Part shown: piece by piece, positions 8,905 to 61,702 of the stretch | Layout of the letters: each line of letters starts with the position of its first letter | How positions within the stretch are numbered: the first letter of the stretch is position 1 | Assembly (NCBI GenBank): GCA_028282325.1 | Contig: JANQID010000021.1 | Location: forward strand, 1-64,000 | Length of the DNA stretch: 64,000 nucleotides | DNA from: Chloroflexaceae bacterium | Lineage (GTDB): Bacteria > Chloroflexota > Chloroflexia > Chloroflexales > Chloroflexaceae | Direction of reading: 5' to 3' | Made by a program: the position numbers and the translations under genes | The notes under the pieces: model-generated | Database searches by the model: none | Seen by the model: only the letters and a program-made list of their open reading frames with translations | Told to the model about the DNA's origin: nothing

Positions 8905-8915
8905 ACGCAATGCGT
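8905..8915. promoter_or_regulatory. Palindrome ACGCAATGCGT abutting a consensus promoter
   Basis: An 11-bp palindrome with a single central base. Its last T is the first T of the -35 hexamer at 8915. The same element occurs at 56487 (reverse complement) and 56680. The position fits an operator or activator site, but no binding protein is known. Confidence 0.5.
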
Positions 8916-8943
8916 TGACAGTCGCCTCTACCAAACGTATAAT
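8915..8943 (+). promoter_or_regulatory. Consensus sigma-70-type promoter of the polysaccharide operon
   Basis: TTGACA at 8915-8920 and TATAAT at 8938-8943 are both perfect, with a 17-bp spacer. Transcription should start near 8950, about 30 nt before the ATG at 8981, so this promoter probably drives the genes from 8981 to 17970. Confidence 0.8.
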
Positions 8944-49310: not shown

Positions 49311-49340
49311 TTGACATCTTTGCACCAATGTTTTTATAAT
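49311..49340 (+). promoter_or_regulatory. Consensus promoter of the DegS-like kinase gene
   Basis: TTGACA at 49311-49316 and TATAAT at 49335-49340, both perfect, with an 18-bp spacer. It leaves a leader of about 170 nt before GTG 49517. Confidence 0.75.
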
Positions 49341-49516: not shown

Positions 49517-50578
49517 GTGCCAGGCGACGAAGTTCGATCAAGTTTAGAAACTACCATCGAAAGCTATCGCGAGGAGCAAGAACGAAACCGCCGTGAATTA
49601 AGCGAGGTTGATGTTCTAGTGCGCCAGGGTTCGGCGGAAGTTGAGAAGCTGTCCCAGCGCGAGCTCTCGGTGTCGAACCGTGTGCGTGATCTCGAAGTTA
49701 ATCTCGAAAAGTATAACAAGGACGAGATTAAAAACTTTTACACCGCAGCCCAAGAAGTTCAGATGCGACTCCAAATGATGCGCGCCCAGCTCGAACAGTT
49801 GCAACTGCGCCAGACAACCCTCCGTAACCGGCAAGAGCAGCTTGCAGAATTCATAACCTTGCTTGATGAAGCAAGTCATGGTTATAGTGATCCAAACGTC
49901 GAGCGATCGAAATCGACGGATGTCAAAGAGATGATCCCGAATATTATTCAGGCTCAGGAAAAAGAGCGCCTGCGCATCTCTTTACAAATGCATGACGGCC
50001 CGGCTCAGTCGATGAGCAACCTTGTTCTTCGTGCTGAGATCTGTCAACGATTATTAGAGCGCGATGTCGATCAAGCGCGGGCGGAACTTACCGGTCTCAA
50101 AACAGCGATCAATAGTACCTTGCAGGATACGCGCCGCTTTATCTTTGAGTTGCGCCCGATGATCCTCGATGATTTAGGTCTGGTGCCTACGCTACGGCGC
50201 TTTATTGTCGAGTTTGGCGAGAAAAATGATCTTGAGATAAACCTTATGGTGCAGAATCTTGAGATGCGGCTGCCTAGCTACTTTGAGGTTACCATCTTTC
50301 GTTTTATCCAAACTGCGTTGGGCAATGTTGCGCAGCATGCAAACGCTAATCAAGTTCGCATCCTTCTTGATGTTTCAAACAATACCATGCATATTGTCAT
50401 TGAAGATGATGGAAGTGGATTCCACGTTAGTGAAGTGCTATCTGATACAAGCGGAAGACGCAATATGGGTATTGCCAGTATGCGTCAACAAATAGAGATG
50501 ATCTTGCGCGGCGAATTTGGTATCGAAAGCGCTATTGGTCGTGGGACGCGCGTTGCTGCAACAATTCCTTTGCCATAG
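49517..50578 (+). CDS. DegS-like cytoplasmic histidine kinase (HisKA_3)
   Basis: 353 residues. Residues 1-140 form a long coiled coil of the DegS sensor type. The HisKA_3 domain follows, with the phospho-acceptor His in LQMHDGPAQSM. A HATPase_c domain (about 255-353; DDGSGF and GIASMRQQIEMI) closes it. No membrane helix, so it should sense an internal signal. It starts at GTG 49517 with AAGGAGG upstream. No response regulator gene is adjacent; the next genes are a pilin and an amidase/M23 protein. Confidence 0.92.
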   Translation: MPGDEVRSSLETTIESYREEQERNRRELSEVDVLVRQGSAEVEKLSQRELSVSNRVRDLEVNLEKYNKDEIKNFYTAAQEVQMRLQMMRAQLEQLQLRQTTLRNRQEQLAEFITLLDEASHGYSDPNVERSKSTDVKEMIPNIIQAQEKERLRISLQMHDGPAQSMSNLVLRAEICQRLLERDVDQARAELTGLKTAINSTLQDTRRFIFELRPMILDDLGLVPTLRRFIVEFGEKNDLEINLMVQNLEMRLPSYFEVTIFRFIQTALGNVAQHANANQVRILLDVSNNTMHIVIEDDGSGFHVSEVLSDTSGRRNMGIASMRQQIEMILRGEFGIESAIGRGTRVAATIPLP

Positions 50579-56401: not shown

Positions 56402-56486
56402 AGGCGTACTCTGTGAACGGATTTGAATATGCTTACCGGCGATTATACCACGTGATTATCAAAGCTTGCGGGTAATATTCGCAATA

Positions 56487-56497
56487 ACGCATTGCGT
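56487..56497. promoter_or_regulatory. Palindrome ACGCATTGCGT next to a promoter
   Basis: Reverse complement of the palindrome at 8905 and 56680. It ends 4 bp before the -35 hexamer at 56502. Site-plus-promoter layout resembles the polysaccharide promoter. Confidence 0.5.
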
Positions 56498-56501
56498 CAT
56501 C

Positions 56502-56531
56502 TTGACATATCTTAGATCTTTTTGTTATAAT
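56502..56531 (+). promoter_or_regulatory. Near-perfect consensus promoter
   Basis: TTGACA at 56502-56507 and TATAAT at 56526-56531 with an 18-bp spacer. The 356-bp gap between ruvA and the CocE gene also holds a 22-codon frame and another palindrome. Confidence 0.75.
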
Positions 56532-56537
56532 ACCGTT

Positions 56538-56606
56538 ATGACGCAGCGTGTAATAAATTCAATCTCGTTACAAACTACTCCACCTGTTTCGACGCTGTCG
56601 CTCTAA
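56538..56606 (+). CDS. Possible leaderless 22-codon ORF
   Basis: ATG 56538 lies 7 nt after the -10 element, so transcription would start at or beside it and no ribosome site is needed. The frame ends TAA 56604-56606 with no recognisable domain. It could be a leader peptide or chance. Nothing else supports translation. Confidence 0.25.
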   Translation: MTQRVINSISLQTTPPVSTLSL

Positions 56607-56679
56607 AGTTCCCGCGTAGTTCTAAGTTAATCACGATGCTTCAAAGGTTGAAAGTCGTCAATGGTGACCATATTTTATT

Positions 56680-56690
56680 ACGCAATGCGT
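56680..56690. promoter_or_regulatory. Palindrome ACGCAATGCGT, third copy
   Basis: Identical to the 8905 site and followed, like the 56487 site, by CAT. It lies 67 bp before the CocE gene. Confidence 0.45.
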
Positions 56691-56757
56691 CATGCACCGG
56701 GTGAAATCGCATCTTCAGCGGGATTTTCTGGCAAATACCGGTCAATAAGGGGTGCGT

Positions 56758-58554
56758 ATGAAATTGGCTAACCGCGGCGTGCTCGCCTTCCTGGGTCTGG
56801 GAGTAGCCGGTCTCGGTCTCTGTCAATTGCATCGACAACTCCGAGCGCTGTCGTTTCAGGCGCCGCCTCCACAATATCAAGTTGTCGTTGAATGTCACCT
56901 GCGTATTCCAATGCCAGATGGCGCTACGTTGATGGCCGACCGTTATTCTCCGCAAGCGAACGGCGAGTTCCCGACTATTCTGATCCGCACTCCTTATGGG
57001 CGACCTCCAGAACTGGGCCTCTTCAATTTGATTGCGCGGTTTTCGGGTCTTGCTGACGATAGTACCTATCGATTATTTGCTGAACGCGGCTATCACGTTG
57101 TTGTTCAGAGCGTTCGCGGTCGCTTTTTATCAGACGGCGAGTTTGATCCGTTTGTCAATGAAGCACACGACGGAACCGCCACAATCGATTGGATTTCTCG
57201 CCAGGAATGGTTCAATGGGACGCTTGGCTTGTGGGGGCCGAGTTATCTAGGATATGTCCAGTGGGCTGTTGCGGCTGCGGCGCCGGCATATCTCAAAGCA
57301 ATACTCCCGATGATGACAAGCGCCCGTATGTCGCGGGCGATTTTTCCCGACGACGCGTACTCGATGGATACGGCGGTTCGCTGGACATATCTTGTCAACG
57401 CGATGCAGGGTCCGAGTAAGCGGTTTGATCTGATTGCGTTGATGCGGACTGCGCCGTTTCGGCAAGTTCGGGCCTTGCGACGAGCGTTTGCCCACACGCC
57501 GACGGGTGAAGTTGATCGCGTAATTCTTGGCAAACCCGTGTCTTTCTATCGCATATGGATGGAGAATGCTAACCTGAGCAGTCCGTATTGGAGATCCATC
57601 GACAAGCATAAACAGCTTTCAGCTATCACTGCACCGGTTCATCTTATCGCCGGTTGGTATGATATCTTTTTGCGCGATCAACTGATTGACTACACCACGC
57701 TGCTAGCATCGGGGCGCAAACCCTATTTAACTATTGGACCGCAAACGCATTCCGCTATGTCGGTGATCGAGCAAGGCGTGCGTGAAGGATTGTCCTGGTT
57801 CGATGCGCATTTAAAAGGCCAGCAGGAACGTGTGCGGCAGCGCCCGGTGCGAGTATATGTGATGGGCGCCCATGAGTGGCACGAGATGGACTTCTGGCCG
57901 CCGTTGGCGCGAACGACGCGCTACTATTTGCATGCGCATAGCCAGCTTGCCACGGTTGTGCCGTCGGAACGCTCATCTGTTGATCAGTTCACATTCGATC
58001 CGTTAGATCCGACGCCGGTTGTGGGCGGCCCGATGCTTAACGAGGGGAATGGGCCGCGCGATCATCGCGGACTGGAGATGCGTCCTGATGTGTTGACCTA
58101 CACTACTCCTCCGCTTACCGATGATGTTGATGTGATCGGGCCGGTGCGCCTGGAGCTTTACACGCGCTCATCCCTCCCGCATACGGACTTTATCGGGCGG
58201 TTGTGCAACGTGTACCCCGATGGGCGGTCGATAAATGTGTGCGACGGACTCTTTCGGGTGCTGCCGGGCAAAGGTGAACGCCAGCCCGATGGCAGCTTGC
58301 GCATTGATATTGATATGTGGGCGACCGCGCAGCGCTTTCGTCGCGGCCATTGCATCCGCCTCCAGGTCGTAAGCGGAGCGCACCCGCGGTGGGAGCGCAA
58401 TCTCGGCAGCGGTGAGCCAATCGGCAAAGGCGTCAATATGCTTCGGGCTGAGCAGTTGATATATCGCGATGCGGCCCACCCATCGGCGCTTGTGCTGCCC
58501 ATCATCAACCCGTCCGATTCAAGCTTAAGTTCACGCCGCGCCTTTGTAGGCTAA
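56758..58554 (+). CDS. CocE/NonD family alpha/beta hydrolase (X-Pro dipeptidase-like)
   Basis: 598 residues. A hydrophobic N-terminus (VLAFLGLGVAGLGLCQL) may be a signal or anchor. The alpha/beta hydrolase domain has GTATIDWISRQEWFNGTLGL, then the nucleophile elbow GPSYLGY, the Asp in AGWYDIFLRD and the His in GPQTHSAM. A PepX-C jelly-roll domain follows (about 375-590). AAGGGG precedes ATG 56758. The family includes cocaine esterase and glutaryl acylases; the substrate is unknown. Confidence 0.88.
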   Translation: MKLANRGVLAFLGLGVAGLGLCQLHRQLRALSFQAPPPQYQVVVECHLRIPMPDGATLMADRYSPQANGEFPTILIRTPYGRPPELGLFNLIARFSGLADDSTYRLFAERGYHVVVQSVRGRFLSDGEFDPFVNEAHDGTATIDWISRQEWFNGTLGLWGPSYLGYVQWAVAAAAPAYLKAILPMMTSARMSRAIFPDDAYSMDTAVRWTYLVNAMQGPSKRFDLIALMRTAPFRQVRALRRAFAHTPTGEVDRVILGKPVSFYRIWMENANLSSPYWRSIDKHKQLSAITAPVHLIAGWYDIFLRDQLIDYTTLLASGRKPYLTIGPQTHSAMSVIEQGVREGLSWFDAHLKGQQERVRQRPVRVYVMGAHEWHEMDFWPPLARTTRYYLHAHSQLATVVPSERSSVDQFTFDPLDPTPVVGGPMLNEGNGPRDHRGLEMRPDVLTYTTPPLTDDVDVIGPVRLELYTRSSLPHTDFIGRLCNVYPDGRSINVCDGLFRVLPGKGERQPDGSLRIDIDMWATAQRFRRGHCIRLQVVSGAHPRWERNLGSGEPIGKGVNMLRAEQLIYRDAAHPSALVLPIINPSDSSLSSRRAFVG

Positions 58555-58581: not shown

Positions 58582-58680
58582 AGACTGGGCCAGTCTTCCA
58601 GAAAAACGTTTGCAGAGGTCTTCGACGGAAATTGCGCTCAGACGTTCAATGGTATGCCGGTTTTGAGACTGGCCCAGTCT
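58582..58680. promoter_or_regulatory. Pair of palindromes upstream of acyl-CoA dehydrogenase
   Basis: AGACTGGGCCAGTCT at 58582-58596 and AGACTGGCCCAGTCT at 58666-58680. Each is a 15-bp palindrome with one central base, and each is the reverse complement of the other. The spacing is 84 bp, exactly 8 turns of B-DNA. TTTT follows the second copy. Together they look like two operators that could be bridged by a dimeric regulator. Confidence 0.55.
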
Positions 58681-58816: not shown

Positions 58817-59989
58817 ATGATCGATTATGAGCACACCGAGGACATCAAGCTCTTGCGTCAAACCATTCGCGACTTTGCAGAGAAAGAAATTCGCCCGATT
58901 GCTCGTCAAATTGACGAGGAAGAGCGGGTGCCTTTTGAAACGCTGAAAAAAGCTGGCGAGATGGGTTTAATGGGTTTGCCGTTTCCTGAGGAATATGGCG
59001 GCGCCGGGGTTGGTATTCTGGGATATTGCATTTTGATGGAAGAGATCAACCGGATTTGCGCCAGCACCGCCACGATCATCGGCGCGCATTCGCAGCTCTG
59101 TGCGATGACGATGCATCTTGGCGGCACGTTGGCTCAGAAAGATAAGTACCTGCGCGCGTTGTGCGAGGGACGCATGATCGGTGCCTGGGCGTTGACCGAG
59201 CCAAACGCGGGAAGCGATGCAGCGCATATCCAGACCACAGCGGAACTGCGCGGCGATGAGTGGGTGCTCAACGGCCAGAAGATGTGGATCAGCAACGGCA
59301 ACTTTGCCGATGTGTTGGTGGTCTTTGCGGCCAATGATCGTTCGTTGGGGCCAAAGGGCGGCGTTTCGGCATTTATCGTCGAGAAGACATTTCCCGGATT
59401 CAAGGTTGGCAAAGTTGAGGACAAGATGGGGTTGCGCGCCTCGCACACCGCCAGCCTCTACTTTGAGGACTGTCGCGTGCCCAAAGAAAATGTGATCGGC
59501 CAGGTCGGCTACGGCTTCTGGGTGGCGAAGAAGACGCTGGACATCGGTCGGGCTGCGTTAGGGGCGGGCGCGCTGGGATCGGCCAAAGAAGCCTTTGAAA
59601 TGAGCCGGAAGTATTCTGTTGAGCGGCAGCAATTTGGGCATCCCATCGCCGACTTTCAGGCTATCCAGTTCAAGCTGGCCGAGATGGCGATGAAAATCTA
59701 TGCAATGGAGCAGATGGTCTATGATACTGCGAAAAAGGTGGACGCAGGCCAGCCAGCCACGCTGGAGAGCAGCATTGTGAAGCTCTATTGTACGGATGCG
59801 GCCAGCCAAATTATCGATGAGGCGATCCAGATACATGGTGGCATGGGCTTCAGCCGCGAGTTGCCGCTGGAACGTATGTATCGCGATGCGCGCGTCACGC
59901 GTATTTTCGAGGGCACCAACGAAGTTCAAAAATATGTCATTGCCCACGAACTGCTGCGACAGATCGGCTATCACACGCGGCTGTATTAA
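58817..59989 (+). CDS. Acyl-CoA dehydrogenase
   Basis: 390 residues, standard three-domain length. N-terminal helices are followed by the beta domain (AWALTEPNAGSDAAHIQTTA), a helical C-terminal domain with HGGMGFSRELPLERMYRDAR, and the catalytic Glu in FEGTNEVQKYV. It oxidises acyl-CoA to enoyl-CoA with FAD, passing electrons to ETF. The chain-length or substrate type (fatty acid, branched-chain, benzoyl-succinyl-like) cannot be told. AGGAGG supports ATG 58817. The paired palindromes upstream may control it. Confidence 0.94.
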   Translation: MIDYEHTEDIKLLRQTIRDFAEKEIRPIARQIDEEERVPFETLKKAGEMGLMGLPFPEEYGGAGVGILGYCILMEEINRICASTATIIGAHSQLCAMTMHLGGTLAQKDKYLRALCEGRMIGAWALTEPNAGSDAAHIQTTAELRGDEWVLNGQKMWISNGNFADVLVVFAANDRSLGPKGGVSAFIVEKTFPGFKVGKVEDKMGLRASHTASLYFEDCRVPKENVIGQVGYGFWVAKKTLDIGRAALGAGALGSAKEAFEMSRKYSVERQQFGHPIADFQAIQFKLAEMAMKIYAMEQMVYDTAKKVDAGQPATLESSIVKLYCTDAASQIIDEAIQIHGGMGFSRELPLERMYRDARVTRIFEGTNEVQKYVIAHELLRQIGYHTRLY

Positions 59990-60068: not shown

Positions 60069-60274
60069 CTCCTCAATGCAGCAAATCTGTTCTTCCTGGC
60101 GCAACGCTCGTACCCCTGCGTTGCATCTCGATAGGCTACATAAGCGCATATCGTACGCTTTCAATGTGTATGCTATAATCGGACTGGACTGTTGATAAGA
60201 GTGCATCAACGCACCGCAATGCCTTCCTGAATCACACATTGCCGAAGACCCCATTGCGGCAGAGGAGGAGAACG

Positions 60275-61702
60275 GTGGCTGCCGGCAAAATTCCGATTGG
60301 GCGGCTGATTGGTATATTTCGCCCTATCCAACGCTGGCTTGAACAGCATCAGGGGGCGCGGCACTGGCTTAACGTATTGCGCCTGGGGCTCTTCCAATTC
60401 GGGATGGGACTTTCCCTGGCGCCGATCACTGGCACGCTCAACCGCGTATTGATTGACGAAATGACCATCCCCGCTGTAGCGGTAGGATTTCTCGTTGCAA
60501 TCCACTATTTTGTTTCTCCAGCTCGCGCAATTATTGGTTTTCAGTCTGATCAAGATCGTGCTGCTGGACGCTGGCGCACGCCGTACATTATGGTGGGCGG
60601 CATCTTAACCTACGGTGGTCTTGCAACAGCGCCGTTTTCCTTGATCTTGCTCAGCGGCGAGGGAGTTCTGTCATTTTGGATGGCGATGATTATCTGTACG
60701 CTGATCTTCCTGGCGTATGGGGTGGGCGTCAATATTGTTGAGACGATTTTTCTCGCGTTGGTCAGTGATATCACGTTGCCGCGCGAGCGAGGACGCGTGC
60801 TGGCCATACTGTGGATTATGCTGGTGTTGGGCACAATTGTCAGCTCTATCATTATGGGCCAGTTGCTAATCGACTACAGTCATTACCGGCTCATCCAGGT
60901 GATGCAAGGCTCGGCGGTAGTCTTTGTGGTGATGGCGTATATTGCGCTCTTTAACCAGGAACGCTTGCGCCCCGACGGTCAAATTGAAGGCTACAACGGA
61001 GAGATTCGCGTGCGCCAGACCCTGGGGCAATCGTTGCGAATCCTGGTAAGCCAGAAGCCCGTACTGAATCTCTTCATCGTGTTGTTTATTGCGACATTGG
61101 CATTTGCCACGCACGATGTGTTGTTGGAGCCTTACGGCGGCCAGGTATTGCAGATGAGTATCAGTGCAACGACACAACTTACGGCGCTTTGGGGCGTGGC
61201 GATGTTGATATCGATTGCCTTATCGGGATGGCTTTTGTGGAAGGGAAGATCGTCGGTTTTGCTGATTACGGCGGGCGTCGCGGTTGGCGCCGCAGGGTTT
61301 CTCATCATCAGTCTTTCCAGCAATGCGGCGCTGGTCAATGTCTTTCGCCTGGGAGTCGGGTTGATCGGCCTGGGGCGCGGCTTGTTTATCGTAGGCAGCG
61401 TGGCGTTGATCATGTCATTATCGGATATGAGTCATGCCGGGTTGTTCCTGGGGCTATGGGGAATGATGCAAGCGATAGCCCAGGGCTTTGGCACGATTGG
61501 CGGCGGCCTTGCCCGCGACATTGCCCAGGGCATTTCCGGTAGCGTCGCATCCGGCTATACGTTTGTCTATCTTTCCTCGCTGGCGATGCTGGGGCTGACG
61601 CTCATCGTATTGACAGCTCTCCGCCTCGGACGACAGATCCGCAACGTGCGCTCACCGTGGGAGGGCTTGCAAGATGTTCCCGCCGATCAGATTGCATTCT
61701 GA
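60275..61702 (+). CDS. PucC-family (BCD) MFS protein, probable bacteriochlorophyll carrier
   Basis: 475 residues with about 12 helices. FQFGMGLSLAPITGTLNRVL, ALVSDITLPRERGRVLAILW and HDVLLEPYGGQVLQMSI match PucC/LhaA/Bch2-type proteins that assemble light-harvesting complexes. GTG 60275 has AGAGGAGGAG upstream; a longer frame from 60239 lacks such a site. The V4R gene begins 89 bp downstream on the same strand. A role in photosynthetic membrane assembly is inferred from the family. Confidence 0.88.
   Translation: MAAGKIPIGRLIGIFRPIQRWLEQHQGARHWLNVLRLGLFQFGMGLSLAPITGTLNRVLIDEMTIPAVAVGFLVAIHYFVSPARAIIGFQSDQDRAAGRWRTPYIMVGGILTYGGLATAPFSLILLSGEGVLSFWMAMIICTLIFLAYGVGVNIVETIFLALVSDITLPRERGRVLAILWIMLVLGTIVSSIIMGQLLIDYSHYRLIQVMQGSAVVFVVMAYIALFNQERLRPDGQIEGYNGEIRVRQTLGQSLRILVSQKPVLNLFIVLFIATLAFATHDVLLEPYGGQVLQMSISATTQLTALWGVAMLISIALSGWLLWKGRSSVLLITAGVAVGAAGFLIISLSSNAALVNVFRLGVGLIGLGRGLFIVGSVALIMSLSDMSHAGLFLGLWGMMQAIAQGFGTIGGGLARDIAQGISGSVASGYTFVYLSSLAMLGLTLIVLTALRLGRQIRNVRSPWEGLQDVPADQIAF

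Follow-up and report, generated by a model that had tools for sequence, protein, structure and literature searches.

Genes and promoters of the locus

The window, which is the whole 64,000-nucleotide stretch of the Chloroflexaceae contig analysed here, contains only three perfect promoters of the form TTGACA-N15..19-TATAAT. The promoter at 8915-8943 on the forward strand possesses a spacer of 17 bp and precedes genes assigned by Pfam to the DUF6541 and glycosyltransferase families. Some 180 bp separate the promoter at 49311-49340 (TTGACA-N18-TATAAT) from a downstream gene for a DegS-like histidine kinase at 49517; the palindrome found at the other two promoters is absent here. The third promoter, TTGACA-N18-TATAAT at 56502-56531 on the forward strand, precedes an operon encoding a hydrolase and an acyl-CoA dehydrogenase, and its TTGACA box is invariant in ten aligned relatives.

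The hydrolase gene (56758-58554, forward strand; a GTG start at 56752 is also possible) encodes a CocE-like protein of the S15/CocE_NonD type (PF02129, PF08530, TIGR00976). Its sequence matches cocaine esterase structures over the full length (1e-80), and the alignment contains conserved S, D and H residues. The N-terminus is hydrophobic, and this segment is conserved. A function as X-Pro peptidase was considered less likely, as the closest solved relatives are cocaine esterases. The acyl-CoA dehydrogenase gene (58817-59989, forward strand, assigned by Pfam) is the second gene of a conserved pair; in relatives, the dehydrogenase encoded after the hydrolase shares 72-78% identity with its product.

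Between both genes we also found an element of 99 bp (58582-58680) with inverted 15-bp ends, AGACTGGGCCAGTCT ... AGACTGGCCCAGTCT, each of them palindromic itself. A genome-wide count gave 45 occurrences of this end sequence and none for the control, several pairs being 84 bp apart; the interiors are similar in some copies, as in a MITE-like dispersed element. Downstream of the operon, 60239-61702 contains genes for a PUCC family protein (a bacteriochlorophyll-related transporter) and for a protein with a V4R domain, consistent with the genome of a phototrophic member of the Chloroflexaceae.

The 11-bp palindrome and its copy at 8905

Re-reading the sequence placed three exact copies of the palindrome ACGCAWTGCGT, and the promoters beside them, where the original prediction had reported them: at 8905-8915 on the forward strand, at 56487-56497 (ACGCATTGCGT) and at 56680-56690. 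Three copies in 64 kb indeed exceed the roughly 0.03 expected, and the promoter at 56502 starts 4 bp past the second copy. The copy at 8905 was said to abut a perfect TTGACA-N17-TATAAT promoter; the promoter is perfect, and the palindrome overlaps it by one base.

Genome-wide enrichment, a check suggested in the original prediction, was barely visible: the genome (4.6 Mb, 140 contigs) contains five exact copies and the reversed control one, with 104 against 79 when one mismatch is allowed. Two out of the five exact copies lie within coding sequence, in genes named by eye as alaS and ilvC. Because of these coding copies and the one-mismatch counts, the 11-mer alone is no regulon marker, and a regulon defined by it was rejected.

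Conservation before orthologues, likewise suggested as a check, was not found for the copy at 8905. In 29 upstream regions of loci related to the gene after 8905 (34-58% identical) no operator was detected, the best site scoring below 4 with the weight matrix described below, compared with about 15-26 for real sites. The 8905 copy itself scores 5.6 bits and ranks ninth in the window, and chance alone should yield about eight scores of this size. In this copy the conserved arms of the longer site (C at -6, G at +7) are missing, and its score is near those of the in-gene copies in alaS and ilvC (3.0 and 3.4). With its low score and the absence of conservation, 8905 was rejected as an operator and as a member of the regulon; it is most likely a coincidence. 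Thus, a neat and rare 11-mer on a perfect promoter can nonetheless be a chance match.

Candidate operators of the hydrolase operon

At 56.5 kb, three sites fit a palindrome of 17 bp, ATRACGCRNYGYGTYAT, and bracket the promoter of the hydrolase/acyl-CoA dehydrogenase operon. Candidate operator 1, ATAACGCATTGCGTCAT (56484-56500), is located upstream of the -35 box and is kept before orthologues; with 23.7 bits it is the highest-scoring site of the window. Candidate operator 2, ATGACGCAGCGTGTAAT (56538-56554; 23.1 bits), covers the presumed start site and is the best-conserved element of the promoter. It had been overlooked in the original prediction because its right half reads GTGT, not GCGT. 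Candidate operator 3, ATTACGCAATGCGTCAT (56677-56693; 22.1 bits), lies in the leader, at a position that is not conserved in most relatives. Sites 1 and 3 contain the exact core YGCRNYGCR; the right half of site 2 deviates from it, with GTG in place of GCG. The next-best place in the window reaches 9.7 bits.

These scores come from a weight matrix trained on relatives only, leaving out the sites of the window; because the matrix relies on sites picked by pattern, it seems somewhat too stringent for site 2 at the outer positions. The set of first sites, chosen mainly by the core, has the same outer bases.

Conservation of the site pair in relatives

Upstream of the 56758 orthologue in Chloroflexaceae relatives, two palindromes flank a promoter resembling TTGACA...TATAMT, with site 1 preceding the -35 box and site 2, which reads ATRACGCRSYGTGTWA, located at the start. 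One or both sites were found in Chloroflexus islandicus (L220), Oscillochloris (L207, L211, L215, L231), Ca. Chloroploca (L226, L227, L230, L232) and Ca. Viridilinea (L224, L233). The pair is kept across many genera, whereas the surrounding sequence diverges. Most hydrolase homologues in outgroups, among them Anaerolineae and Archangium, are without the sites. In relatives without the hydrolase gene, the operator stands immediately before the acyl-CoA dehydrogenase gene.

The spacing between sites 1 and 2 varies from 32 to 58 bp, so DNA looping at a fixed distance is unsupported. An operator serving the divergent ruvA gene of the same region is less likely, as a different gene is found upstream in several relatives and the operators remain next to the hydrolase or acyl-CoA dehydrogenase gene. 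Three hydrolase leaders (L009, L011, L012) also contain a short open reading frame of about 20 codons; its stop codon and the ATG that comes next overlap as TGATG. As read by eye, these frames share an M-x-G-L-L start, and translational coupling is possible.

Other sites in the genome and in relatives

A pattern search with the degenerate 17-mer gave seven matches in the own genome and none for the reversed control. Besides the three sites at 56.5 kb, they comprise one before a phasin-phaR gene pair (contig C33), two before fadB-fadA (C81) and one near rsfS (C39:110598). The site-2 pattern gave about 70 matches in 61 genomes, against four in the control. The genes that follow, named partly by eye (phasin was checked), include phasin and then phaR, the hydrolase/acyl-CoA dehydrogenase operon, acyl-CoA dehydrogenase alone (genus g5), thiolase, and aldehyde dehydrogenase (genus g9). 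At the promoters for phasin and aldehyde dehydrogenase, the spacer between the -35 and -10 boxes is taken up by the site.

The operator before the phasin gene is common to the own genome and many relatives, and in 21 relative genomes a site lies within 2 kb of phaR. The operator precedes phaR in different ways: via the phasin-phaR pair in family f1, and directly in family f4, presumably Roseiflexus, where it is found 28 bp before phaR itself and no phasin gene precedes. The f4 sites were outside the training set. The matches in family f3, probably Herpetosiphon, precede another phasin-like gene and glutamate synthase. In three f3 genomes (L138, L140, L141) the PhaR-type site lies about 340 bp before the glutamate synthase gene; this family possesses PhaR and no PhaC_N match, possibly a reuse of PhaR without synthesis of polyhydroxyalkanoate (PHA).

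PhaR as the candidate regulator

The product of the gene beside the phasin gene on contig C33 belongs to the PHB_acc_N family (PF07879, 1.5e-24) and clears the Pfam cut-off by a wide margin, although it remains below the NCBIfam equivalog cut-off for PhaR (TIGR01848, 74 against 109 bits). A sequence search for relatives of known structure found none for PhaR. The genome is predicted to make PHA, as judged from a synthase gene (PhaC_N match on contig C51) with PhaE-, PhaB- and PhaA-like neighbours. Among 158 genomes of the class, 41 possess both the site and PF07879, seven the site only, 18 the family only and 92 neither, a co-occurrence that is inflated by relatedness. The 18 PhaR genomes without an exact site-2 match include some with variants; no site variants were seen in two PhaR genomes of family f5.

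The binding protein had been left unknown in the original prediction, and PhaR is now a strong candidate, given this co-occurrence, the sites adjacent to phaR and the shared core. Judging by where the sites lie and how PhaR is known to act, we infer that the palindromes at 56.5 kb are PhaR operators and that PhaR represses the operon until PHA granules titrate it away, a reading to which we assign a probability of about 0.83. PhaR, a repressor that senses PHA granules and is encoded elsewhere in the genome in the phasin-phaR pair, would bind beside the -35 box (site 1) and over the start (site 2), and would block RNA polymerase at the consensus promoter; site 3, within the leader, may strengthen this block. 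Once PHA granules form, PhaR would be drawn onto them and the promoter freed, so that the CocE-like hydrolase and the acyl-CoA dehydrogenase would be made together with phasin, PhaR and FadBA.

Other explanations were weighed against PhaR control. The sites may be real operators bound by another regulator, e.g. a fatty-acid regulator of the TetR or GntR type with control over the phasin-phaR pair as well; several targets are fatty-acid oxidation genes, and binding of PhaR is here predicted from sequence. We consider this unlikely, as the site precedes phaR in differing gene contexts and tracks PF07879, its core equals that of known PhaR sites, and a non-exhaustive search revealed no other regulator gene beside the sites. 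The palindromes could also all be chance matches, as the scarce enrichment of the 11-mer might suggest; nevertheless, the enrichment of the 17-mer (7 against 0) and the conservation across many genera refute a chance origin of the 56.5 kb sites and leave this explanation a negligible probability.

The shared regulon of the original prediction holds for the element at 56.5 kb, which is conserved before orthologues and common to phasin-phaR and fadBA, but its link to 8905 does not. Control of both distant promoters by one regulator acting on the 11-bp palindrome, with the polysaccharide genes after 8981 in the same regulon, is very improbable: the 8905 copy does overlap a perfect promoter with its complete YGCRNYGCR core, and PhaR of Sinorhizobium meliloti also affects exopolysaccharide genes (PMC12542648), yet the missing arms, the chance-level score and resemblance to the alaS and ilvC copies, and the lack of a counterpart before the 29 related genes argue against it.

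With PhaR controlling the operon, an uncharacterised esterase and genes of fatty-acid oxidation would be linked to PHA storage in green non-sulfur phototrophs. The mode of regulation and the hydrophobic N-terminus of the hydrolase prompt the guess that this protein acts on PHA or its oligomers. It is conceivable, albeit rather doubtful, that the hydrolase, with its conserved N-terminal segment and catalytic triad, represents an undescribed granule-associated PHA (oligomer) hydrolase and that PhaR in Chloroflexota couples the granule state, beyond phasins, to beta-oxidation through the hydrolase, acyl-CoA dehydrogenase, FadBA and thiolase genes.

Comparison with known systems

The element at 56.5 kb is a real, conserved operator module whose regulator is of a known kind; for this phylum, partial coverage of the literature revealed no paper on a PhaR regulon. 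The analysis predicts such a regulon at a great distance from the proteobacteria in which PhaR was studied, and supplies its operator sequence. Since Chloroflexus strains possess the same module, the prediction is directly testable.

Ralstonia eutropha PhaR binds the site YTKNTGCRNYGCANMAR, and phaP1 carries two sites, one just ahead of the -35 box and the other around the start (PMC12849132), as found here. Both systems share a palindrome with one central base and the core TGCRNYGCA, and the sequestration of PhaR by granules in R. eutropha (PMC12849132) is also proposed for the present operon. However, the outer half-sites here are ACGC/GYGT, with T and A at -7/+7, whereas proteobacterial PhaR sites have TTGC, and the promoter drives a hydrolase and an acyl-CoA dehydrogenase instead of a phasin. 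In Bradyrhizobium diazoefficiens, the footprinted sites TGCRNYGCASMA lie at and around the -35 box of phasin promoters, and polyhydroxybutyrate (PHB) nearly abolishes DNA binding by PhaR in vitro (PMC6201568); the outer half-site differs from that found here, and the regulon is broader and more degenerate (PMC6201568).

PhaR (AniA) of S. meliloti recognises the same core, YGCRNYGCR, and its targets comprise phasins and degradative genes (PMC12542648). At SMa1961 a single site is located between the -10 box and the start (PMC12542648), as at the promoters of the lone acyl-CoA dehydrogenase genes described here. Nonetheless, the S. meliloti regulon is larger, including the exopolysaccharide genes, and belongs to another phylum with other arms (PMC12542648). 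The hydrolase resembles cocaine esterase (CocE) and the CocE/NonD hydrolases in its full-length match and conserved residues, and differs from them in the conserved hydrophobic N-terminal segment and in its predicted regulation by a PHA-type operator.
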